A stretch of 64,000 nucleotides of DNA, from NCBI RefSeq assembly GCF_964030895.1, contig NZ_OZ034986.1:558001-622000 (forward strand). The letters are read 5' to 3'. Source of the DNA: Spiroplasma endosymbiont of Nebria brevicollis. Lineage in GTDB: Bacteria; Bacillota_I; Bacilli_A; Mycoplasmatales; VBWQ01. The notes under the pieces were generated by a model. It searched no databases. It had not been told where the DNA came from and saw only the letters and a list, made by a program, of their open reading frames with translations. The translations under genes were made by a program, and so were the position numbers. Below are positions 9,281-39,441 of the stretch, piece after piece (within the stretch, counting starts at the first letter, position 1; every line of letters starts with the position of its first letter).

Positions 9281-9849
9281 ATGAAAAGTATAAGAATACT
9301 ATTAAAACTATTAGGTGCCGTTACTTTAACAGCAATTCCAGTAGTTACTGTTATAGATTGTGGTAACGAAGAAGATGAAGGCAAGTTATTACTAGATAAA
9401 GTATCAATAAATTTAGGTTTAACAGATGCCTCAGGAAAGGGTTTGAAAGCTATTATGCTTAATTGAGATAATGATAAACCTTATTCCGCAATTAAGAGTA
9501 ATGATATTTTAGTTACTAAATTATTAGAAGGCGATGCTACTACTGGTGAAGCCAAAGCTAAGGATAAAGAAAGTTTTGATTTTTTAAAATCTGTTTTACA
9601 ACAAAAATTAAAATCAGGAACAACATTTGAAGATGGTACTTTTGATGTAGCAGAAGTTGTTAAAATTAAGTATAAATTGTCCAATATAAAAATTTTTGCT
9701 GCTAAATTTGTAGAACCAAATGATGAAGAAAAACTTATTGTAAATGATGGAGCATATAATTTACAATTCTTTAAAGAAGATGATAGTACAAATTTAGGTG
9801 ATAAATATAAAGTAAAAGTAGAAACTAACACTGATGCTTTATTTAATAT

Positions 9850-10793
9850 GGCTTTTATCCCTTTATGTACTTTTTTAAATTTTATCACATAAACAAGAAT
9901 AAAAGCCTACCTAGGAAATTATCCCCGCATGTACTTATATTAAGCACAATATAAGTGTTTAAAAAGTTAGAAGTTTATTAAACTTATATGCAGATTCTTT
10001 GGCATATAAGTGAATTTTTTCTTTTGAAACCCTGACATGAGTTCTGAAAGTCTTCCTCAAATGTTTTCACACTGACTCAATTTGGTTTGTGTTGACACCA
10101 TTTGATGACACATAACCAAATTGATGATTTACTGTTTCATGTTTAGGATAAGAAGTTTTAAAACTTTGATATCCTTTTCAAGAATCAGTAAACAATGGAC
10201 AGCTAACAGAAATGTGCTGCAAAGCAAACTTCAAAAGGTTTTTCTTGTCTGCTTTTTTTAAAACTTTCACAATTAAATTATTGGTTGTTTTTTCATAAAT
10301 GCCAACAATCAATGTTTTATTCAACAAAGATCTCCCTTGTTTTTTTGAACCCATATGTGAAAGATACATTTCATCCATTTGTGGAATGCCATTGATAATG
10401 AGTTGTGATTCTTGTTTTGCAATTCTATTTCTGATTTCATGATCCATTCTTCAAGTTGTTTTATAAGTCACACCTAATTCTTTTGTAAGAACTGTTGCAG
10501 AGGTATGCCATGCTTGGTGTTTATTCATCTAAAGATAAGATAAAATCAAAATGTCAATTTGGTTTGTGACTTATAAAAAATGGTGCCATGTAAGATGCTA
10601 AATGTTTGATGACATTTCAAACATCTTATTCTTCTAAAATCAGAAACATTTAGACATTTGGTGTCACACTTGATACATTTAATTGTTTTCAAATTTGCGA
10701 TATATTTTAAACAATCTTTTTCTGTTTGAAAACTGTTGTTGAACTCGTTGAGTTTCATTTTTTCCTCCACAAGTACATGCGGGGATAATTTCC
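9850..10793 (-). mobile_element. IS1595-type element, copy A (944 bp, inactive)
   Basis: The element is flanked by 8-bp direct repeats TTTAATAT (9842-9849 and 10794-10801), the target-duplication size known for the IS1595 family. Inverted repeats of at least 20 bp (GGAAATTATCCCCGCATGTA) lie at about 9914 and at 10793. Outside the inner repeat on the transposase 3' side is a further palindrome, 9850-9907 (GGCTTTTAT ... ATAAAAGCC), still inside the target duplication. The transposase is on the minus strand and frameshifted. Compare copy B at 38504-39441, which has the same architecture. Confidence 0.88.
9959..10758 (-). pseudogene. IS1595/ISXO2-type transposase, frameshifted
   Basis: The start at 10758 follows GGAGGAAAAA. 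The N-terminal zinc ribbon is visible (IKCIKCDTKCLN ... IRCLKCHQTF), then the DDE-type domain with IPQMDEMYLSHMG, LFTDSWKGYQSF and TNQIESVWKHLRKTF. Compared with the intact copy B (273 residues), one base is missing near 10501, after WINTKHGIP. The frame shifts there, between the zinc ribbon and the catalytic domain. The catalytic half is otherwise complete to TAA at 9959. The product cannot be full length without frameshifting. Confidence 0.88.
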
Positions 10794-11159
10794 TTTAATA
10801 TTTTTGGCGCTAGTGCTCGTATTAAATTAGGTTATAAAGAATTTGTTTATTCAGGAAGTCCTATTGAAAATTTTAAAAGTAGCATAAAAAATGATGTTGC
10901 TAAAAACGATTGGGTGAAAAATAAAATAGAGGTACCATTAATAAGTAAAAAAAGAACTGAACCAGCTATCAAATTTAATAACTTTGAAGAACTAGTTGGT
11001 TGAAAGTCAAAATTTAATGTAAATAAATATACTCAAGTTATAGAAGGTAATCCACGTTTTGCAGAATTCGATAGCCTATCTTTTTCTATAAAATTAATTA
11101 AAAATAAAGAAGAAATAAAATTATCTAAACAGCAAATTATATCTATTATTAACGATTAA

Positions 11160-38503: not shown

Positions 38504-39441
38504 CGGACTTCTCCCCACATGTACTTGTGGAGGAAAAAATGAATTGAAATGAATTCAACAGAATATTTCAAACTGAAAAACAATGTCTTGCATATATAGC
38601 AAGTTTGAAACAAAGCAAATGTATTAGGTGTTCTAGTTTTAATTTGAATACTTCTGATTTAAAAAGAATGAGATGTTTGAAATGTCATCAAACATTTAGT
38701 ATTCTCACGGGCACTATATTTTCAAAGTCCCAAACGTCTTTAATATCTTGGTTTTATCTCATCTTTAGATGAATAAACACCAAACATGGAATTCCATCAA
38801 CTGATGTTGCAAAAGAATTGGGAGTGACCTTGAAAACAGCTTGAAGAATGGGTCATAAAATCCGAAGTGCCATTGCTAAACAAAAACCTCAATTCATTGT
38901 TGAAGGGATAGTGCAAATAGATGAAATGTATCTTTCACATATGGGTTTTAAAAAACAAGGAAGATCCTTGTTAAACAAAACCTTGATTGTTGGCATTTAT
39001 CAAAAAACAACCAATAATTTAATTGTGAAAGTATTGAAAAACGCAAACAGTAAAAATCTTTTGCAGTTTGCAAGAAACCACATGTCTTCAAAGTGTGATG
39101 TACATACTGATTTGTGAAAAGGATATCGCGATTTGAAATCGGTTTTCACTAAGCATGAAACAGTTAACCATCAAAATGGCTATGTTTCAAAAACTGGTGT
39201 AAATACCAACCAAATTGAATCAGTATGAAAACATATACGAAGAACATTTAAAACACATATCAAAGTTGCAAAACATCATGTTCATTTATATGCAAAAGAA
39301 TCAGCATATAAATTCAATAACATACCTAGTTTTGAAACTGTAATGCTATGTTTGATTTAAAACTGTGGGGAGAAGTCCGTAGATAGGCTTTTCTCAGCAT
39401 TTATGTGATAAAATTTAATAGTACATAAAGGGAGAAAAGCC
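38504..39441 (+). mobile_element. IS1595-type element, copy B (938 bp, intact)
   Basis: Flanked by 8-bp direct repeats ATATTAAT (38496-38503 and 39442-39449). The left end is CGGACTTCTCCCCACATGTA, its complement ACTGTGGGGAGAAGTCCG is at 39362-39379, then TAGATA, then a palindrome GGCTTTTCTC ... GAGAAAAGCC at 39386-39441 that reaches the target duplication. The outer arm of the palindrome resembles the left end (shared TTCTCCC and ATGTACT). The same architecture occurs in copy A. It carries an intact transposase and is inserted in an IS5-type transposase gene. Confidence 0.9.
38539..39360 (+). CDS. IS1595/ISXO2-type transposase, intact
   Basis: A 273-residue transposase. The zinc ribbon SKCIRCSSFN ... 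MRCLKCHQTFS covers residues about 27-60. A helical linker ISWFYLIFRWINTKHGIP and helix-turn-helix TDVAKELGVTLKTAWRMG follow. The DDE-type catalytic region has VQIDEMYLSHMG (Asp), DVHTDLWKGYRD (Asp) and TNQIESVWKHIRRTF (Asn/Glu). A GTGGAGGAAAAA ribosome site is present. Length is normal for short IS1595 members. All motifs are present, so this copy may still be active. Confidence 0.92.

Follow-up and report, generated by a model that had tools for sequence, protein, structure and literature searches.

An IS1595-family insertion sequence of Spiroplasma whose right end carries an added inner repeat, 6-nt gap and terminal hairpin, and its possible role in end joining

The IS1595 family groups insertion sequences with ISXO2-like DDE transposases and has a eukaryotic relative, Merlin. 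An N-terminal zinc-binding domain is a trait of every IS1595 group except IS1016. To our knowledge, these DDE enzymes use no single-stranded step, and we know of strand pairing as a means of joining ends only in HUH elements such as IS200/IS605. In IS30, tandem dimers are formed in which the inverted repeats of two copies are joined with a spacing of 2 bp, and the spacer in this model involves bases bordering the ends (PMC9333248). In IS200/IS605, internal guides pair with the element's own ends on single strands, and single-stranded circular intermediates occur (PMC6006769). No paper linking IS1595 with minicircles was found in our literature search. Among seven distant Bacillota IS1595 elements with ends defined by target-site duplications, the two ends are alike over 17-20 of 20 nt, and an inner repeat or terminal hairpin is absent from all seven.

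The locus described here lies in a window of 64 kb, the whole stretch of DNA analysed, from a Spiroplasma genome of 1.49 Mb in one contig in which TGA is read as tryptophan. A 944-bp IS1595-family element, referred to as A type, occupies 9850-10793 on the minus strand; the 8-bp duplications around it and around its sister copies fix the ends, and its IS1595 transposase domain gives the family. The target-site duplication TTTAATAT is found at 9842-9849 and in the same letters at 10794-10801. The first-pass annotation of this DNA had placed the element's ends at 9850 and 10793, and all of its coordinates are right. It had also claimed that a lipoprotein reading frame is restored once the element and one duplication are removed, and the arithmetic agrees: together they make 952 nt, and the lipoprotein frame (9281, 2 mod 3) coincides with the downstream open frame (10683, 0 mod 3; 2 mod 3 after subtraction of 952). 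The C-terminal part of the transposase, which contains the DDE domain, spans 9959-10528 on the minus strand (PF12762, E=1e-24; NF033547, E=1e-34). Translation and comparison with intact B copies place the N-terminal part at 10474-10758 on the same strand, frameshifted from the remainder in the window's A copy, and a ribosome-binding site, GGAGG, is located at 10764-10768 (minus strand), a few nt inside the left terminal repeat. A B-type copy of the same family with an intact transposase lies at 38504-39441 on the plus strand (locus L009, G000:C1:596504-597441), with the duplication ATATTAAT on both sides. The DDE_Tnp_IS1595 domain is identified in both types, with PF12762 E-values of 1e-24 (A-copy fragment) and 1.1e-27 (B) and NF033547 scores of 120 and 146 bits, vs a cut-off of 75. 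Two CxxC pairs are visible at the transposase N-terminus; no IS1595-specific Pfam zinc-domain model matched.

The ends of the element are built from more parts than two simple repeats. The outer right terminal inverted repeat (IRR, GGCTTTTATCCCTTTATGTACTT, 9850-9872, plus strand) adjoins the duplication wherever a copy has kept its duplications intact, and the left terminal inverted repeat (IRL, GGAAATTATCCCCGCATGTACTT on the minus strand, 10771-10793) likewise adjoins its duplication. IRR and a complementary arm, IRR', whose end ...ATAAAAGCC is at 9907, form a 58-nt terminal hairpin (9850-9907) supported by folding and by compensatory changes among the A, B and C lineages. It is followed by a 6-nt gap between two stems (9908-9913; TACCTA on the plus strand, TAGGTA on the transposase strand) and by an inner repeat (9914-9936, plus strand) that is the exact reverse complement of IRL over 23/23 nt, or 24 with one flanking base. 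The inner repeat starts 64 nt inside the right end, and its 24-nt arm is 100% complementary to the 10793 end; the earlier observations of a perfect repeat about 64 bases inside and of a palindrome filling the difference therefore hold, the palindrome covering 9850-9907 and TACCTA the remainder. Read on the transposase strand, the order is IRL (23 nt), GGAGG, transposase, inner repeat, six unpaired nt, the IRR' arm, loop, IRR and end. Of the compound end with three end-like sequences proposed at first, the compound end stands and the count becomes four, since IRR', the inner arm of the palindrome, is also end-like. Chance is excluded as the origin of the IRL match in the 3' tail: among 2,000 shuffles of 3' tails, the best agreement with the first 16 nt of IRL was 12/16, vs 16/16 observed. 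A search of Rfam returned one sub-threshold chance match.

In the predicted fold, both stems are flush to the terminus: the first nucleotide of IRL is paired to the final one of the inner repeat, and the final nucleotide of IRR to the first of IRR', with six bases left between the stems. Fold z-scores, with terminal bases paired on both sides of the gap, are -8.7 (SHM, a strain of Spiroplasma ixodetis) and -12.7 (A). The gap is 6 nt long in the A, B, SHM and C lineages and reads TAGGTA in A, TAGATA in B and SHM, and TATTTA in the fragment L013. IRL and outer IRR are identical at 17/23 nt in A and 13/20 in B, weaker than in other IS1595 members, and in the B lineage their tips are unlike each other (CGGACTT vs GGCTTTT).

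To locate the true ends, we used a set of 155 distinct full copies from the window's own genome and SHM, in which 139 have perfect 8-bp duplications outside the hairpin and outside IRL. Another two copies have one mismatch, and in a few the duplication is shifted by 1-2 nt. An unselected sample, the first 400 kb of the SHM chromosome, contains 64 element spans, some of them interrupted by other insertions; 60 have perfect 8-bp duplications and all contain the inner repeat. The early identification of an IS1595-type element with 8-bp duplications is supported, and the compound right end belongs to the lineage, as had been suggested. In the window's genome, the seven identical B copies all have perfect 8-bp duplications at the outer boundaries, as do L001, L003 and L004 among the four full A copies, with L002 the exception. 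No duplication directly at the inner repeat, the arrangement named by the first-pass annotation as the sign of an unrelated neighbouring insertion, was seen in any of the 155 copies of the two genomes or anywhere in the 400-kb SHM stretch. The hairpin tip is the true right end of the element, and the duplications outside the hairpin across the 155 copies rule out the palindrome as a neighbouring insertion. The end architecture at 9850-10793 is real and lineage-specific, on an otherwise ordinary IS1595-family element: a working lineage in which inner repeat, 6-nt gap and hairpin have been added to the right end. L003 and L004 have a common deletion of ~42 bp in the transposase gene yet different perfect 8-bp duplications; a defective copy therefore moved, presumably in trans.

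The closest relative carrying the element is S. ixodetis, with at least 150 copies in SHM, and 64 spans in 400 kb is a very high load for a single insertion sequence lineage, which may help explain rearrangement in these symbionts. One SHM copy (L102) is flanked by a 26-bp direct repeat, not 8 bp, and the same sequence adjoins a truncated copy (L134). Bases 1-61 of plasmid pSAP_1 of S. ixodetis sAp269 hold a truncated copy (L339) with the IRL tip CGGACTTCTCCCCGCATGTACTT, intermediate between A and B. For plasmid relatives in Treponema, Megaera, Entomospira and Sulfitobacter, the ends could not be set by duplications.

Comparison of the lineages shows that pairing has persisted while sequence has changed. 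A and B share 76% DNA identity (24% of positions differ), and between them 16/16 pairs of IRL with the inner repeat are kept, through five double changes and one single-sided pair that is still standard. The outer ten pairs of IRR with IRR' persist, with A-T replaced by C-G in B and C-G replaced by T-A in C (L013). In the B and SHM inner repeats, the ATGTACTT core, presumably the transposase binding site, is gone and 16-17 nt of complementarity to IRL remain; in the abundant B lineage this core is retained only at the two true ends. Since an inner repeat without the ATGTACTT part is still matched to IRL, what is maintained is its complementarity to the IRL tip and not a full end, which goes against the earlier idea of a tandem or captured second end as an added site for the transposase. 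In a few copies the duplications are perfect despite one mismatch in the stem of IRL and inner repeat; exact pairing is therefore not essential. Repeated copying, instead of selection, could be the source of the compensatory changes. Counts of G-U vs A-C pairs were considered as a guide to which strand pairs and were set aside as too few and confounded by hybrid copies.

A search of SHM for head-to-tail joints with spacers up to about 30 nt found two, both with the spacer TATCTA and reading AAAAGCC-TATCTA-CGRACTT (IRR-TATCTA-IRL). The spacer is the complement of the B/SHM gap TAGATA. It had escaped the first-pass annotation that both termini pair flush with internal complements across the 6-nt gap and that the tandem junctions carry the complement of this gap. 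Among the fetched loci, no other direct neighbours lie closer together than 127 bp, and the outer flanks of each tandem pair form no duplication. At one pair (L082), an IS3-like element present in 26+ copies shows the host sequence without interruption; the ~20 bp of host DNA that once separated two insertion sites are missing, with TATCTA in their place. A host flank was rejected as the source of TATCTA because the uninterrupted L082 target has another sequence. What precedes the joint is IRR in its own direction and not IRR'. Were the joint a product of homologous recombination between only the inner repeat and IRL, IRR' would stand beside TATCTA in place of IRR; simple recombination of this kind therefore fails to give the joint, whereas fold-back templating does give it. 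Insertion into the hairpin or inner region of an inverted neighbour (target CCTATCTA) was also dismissed, as the hairpin orientation and right flank misfit. Both known joints are in SHM; none was found in the window's genome and none for the A type. Viral contigs gave no confirmed relative and no match to the junction, and a phage collection gave no match. Elsewhere in SHM, a full copy is joined to a 3'-truncated copy with one duplication, TAATCAAA, flanking the composite (L053), which is explained by insertion at TTATTTAA and recombination between two hairpin ends.

Judged from sequence comparison, it is nearly an even question whether the fold of the element templates an end-to-end junction in its normal life, as in circle or dimer formation. 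One strand would be exposed, either displaced in transposition or at a replication fork, and would fold such that a single template held its 3' end (IRR) and its 5' end (IRL) with six bases between them. An IRR-6bp-IRL junction would then arise by fill-in and joining, or by snap-back extension followed by re-annealing. Insertion sequences that form circles or dimers paste such a junction into new sites as their intermediate, and, in keeping with the clean duplications, the spacer would be lost at insertion. More tentatively, a DDE insertion sequence may circularise or dimerise through its folded single strand acting as its own splint, with the termini brought together on an internal template and the fixed 6-nt junction copied from it. 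On the other hand, cut-and-paste alone would be sufficient for the insertions. With only two joints, both from one genome, a transposase-driven reaction and replication fold-back are inseparable, and our confidence in the templating proposal therefore stays just short of even.

The tandem joints may instead be replication accidents, in which a nascent strand at the hairpin snaps back, copies gap and inner repeat and re-anneals to a nearby IRL, while the end structure serves some other purpose or is maintained by that copying itself (concerted evolution). Replication fold-back events readily occur at long palindromes, the joint requires no transposase, and in L082 a single IS3-like copy held both elements with ~20 bp of host sequence between them, close enough for an easy template switch. 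We nevertheless consider this unlikely, as it offers nothing but coincidence to explain why both stems are in flush register with the cut sites and why the gap stays at 6 nt from lineage to lineage. It is less likely again that the structure acts at the RNA level, with the inner repeat at the mRNA 3' end pairing with the 5' leader before the ribosome-binding site, the 3' hairpin ending or stabilising the transcript and read-through expression being damped. The IRL end does lie a few nt ahead of GGAGG and ATG, the predicted RNA folding is strong (-48.9 and -60.3 kcal/mol) and pairing is kept by G-U in some hybrid copies. However, control of this kind would not call for stems flush with the DNA cut sites or a gap fixed at 6 nt, most of the ribosome-binding site is unpaired in the fold, and a terminator scan found no terminator-like site. 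The last result also speaks against the earlier suggestion that the hairpin is a terminator, although a low-GC hairpin could still act as one. In two genomes, a decayed terminal-like hairpin follows similar upstream sequence (L016, own genome, G000:C1:132688-132742; L208, G006); this hairpin may be an old insertion that has taken on a terminator role.

A role of the inner repeat as a back-up end or further site for transposase binding, yielding a shorter 880-bp element, appears improbable: the repeat matches IRL exactly over 23 nt in A copies, but no duplication abuts it in any copy found and the ATGTACTT core is lost from the B and SHM inner repeats. Least probable of all is a passive relic of an ancestral insertion beside a palindromic mini-element, carried along because the transposase uses the outer tip, which would account for decayed hairpin-like sequences standing alone in the genome (L016, L018) but not for pairing that persists through 24% divergence with double changes, nor for the 0/64 spans without an inner repeat in 400 kb of SHM, and the solo hairpins are few and decayed, with none examined having a duplication. 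A population of solo hairpin mini-elements was discarded, with just the two decayed examples in the window's genome.

If the junction is self-templated, as the templating proposal has it, a DDE transposon uses strand pairing for end joining, and the element offers a route to study intermediates of IS1595 and perhaps of its Merlin relatives. Its likeness to the IS1595 family lies in the DDE_Tnp_IS1595 domain, an NF033547 score above cut-off, 8-bp duplications and a single transposase gene (PMC8101967), together with terminal inverted repeats at both ends, whereas the other members tested have near-perfect simple end repeats. With IS30 dimerisation and copy-out-paste-in it shares directly oriented copies head to tail and a short spacer of fixed length (PMC9333248). 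Copy-out-paste-in elements of the IS30 and IS3 type are marked by covalently closed element circles as intermediates and by head-to-tail IRR-IRL junctions with a short spacer, and the latter are present in the two SHM joints. The Spiroplasma spacer, however, is 6 bp, element-encoded and complementary to the internal gap, in contrast to the 2 bp of IS30. As in IS200/IS605, internal sequences pair with the element's own termini and hairpins lie near the ends (PMC6006769). The IS200/IS605 elements rely on HUH tyrosine (Y1) enzymes with 4-nt guides and leave the target unduplicated, whereas the Spiroplasma element combines a DDE enzyme with stems of 10-23 bp and an 8-bp duplication, which places it outside that group.
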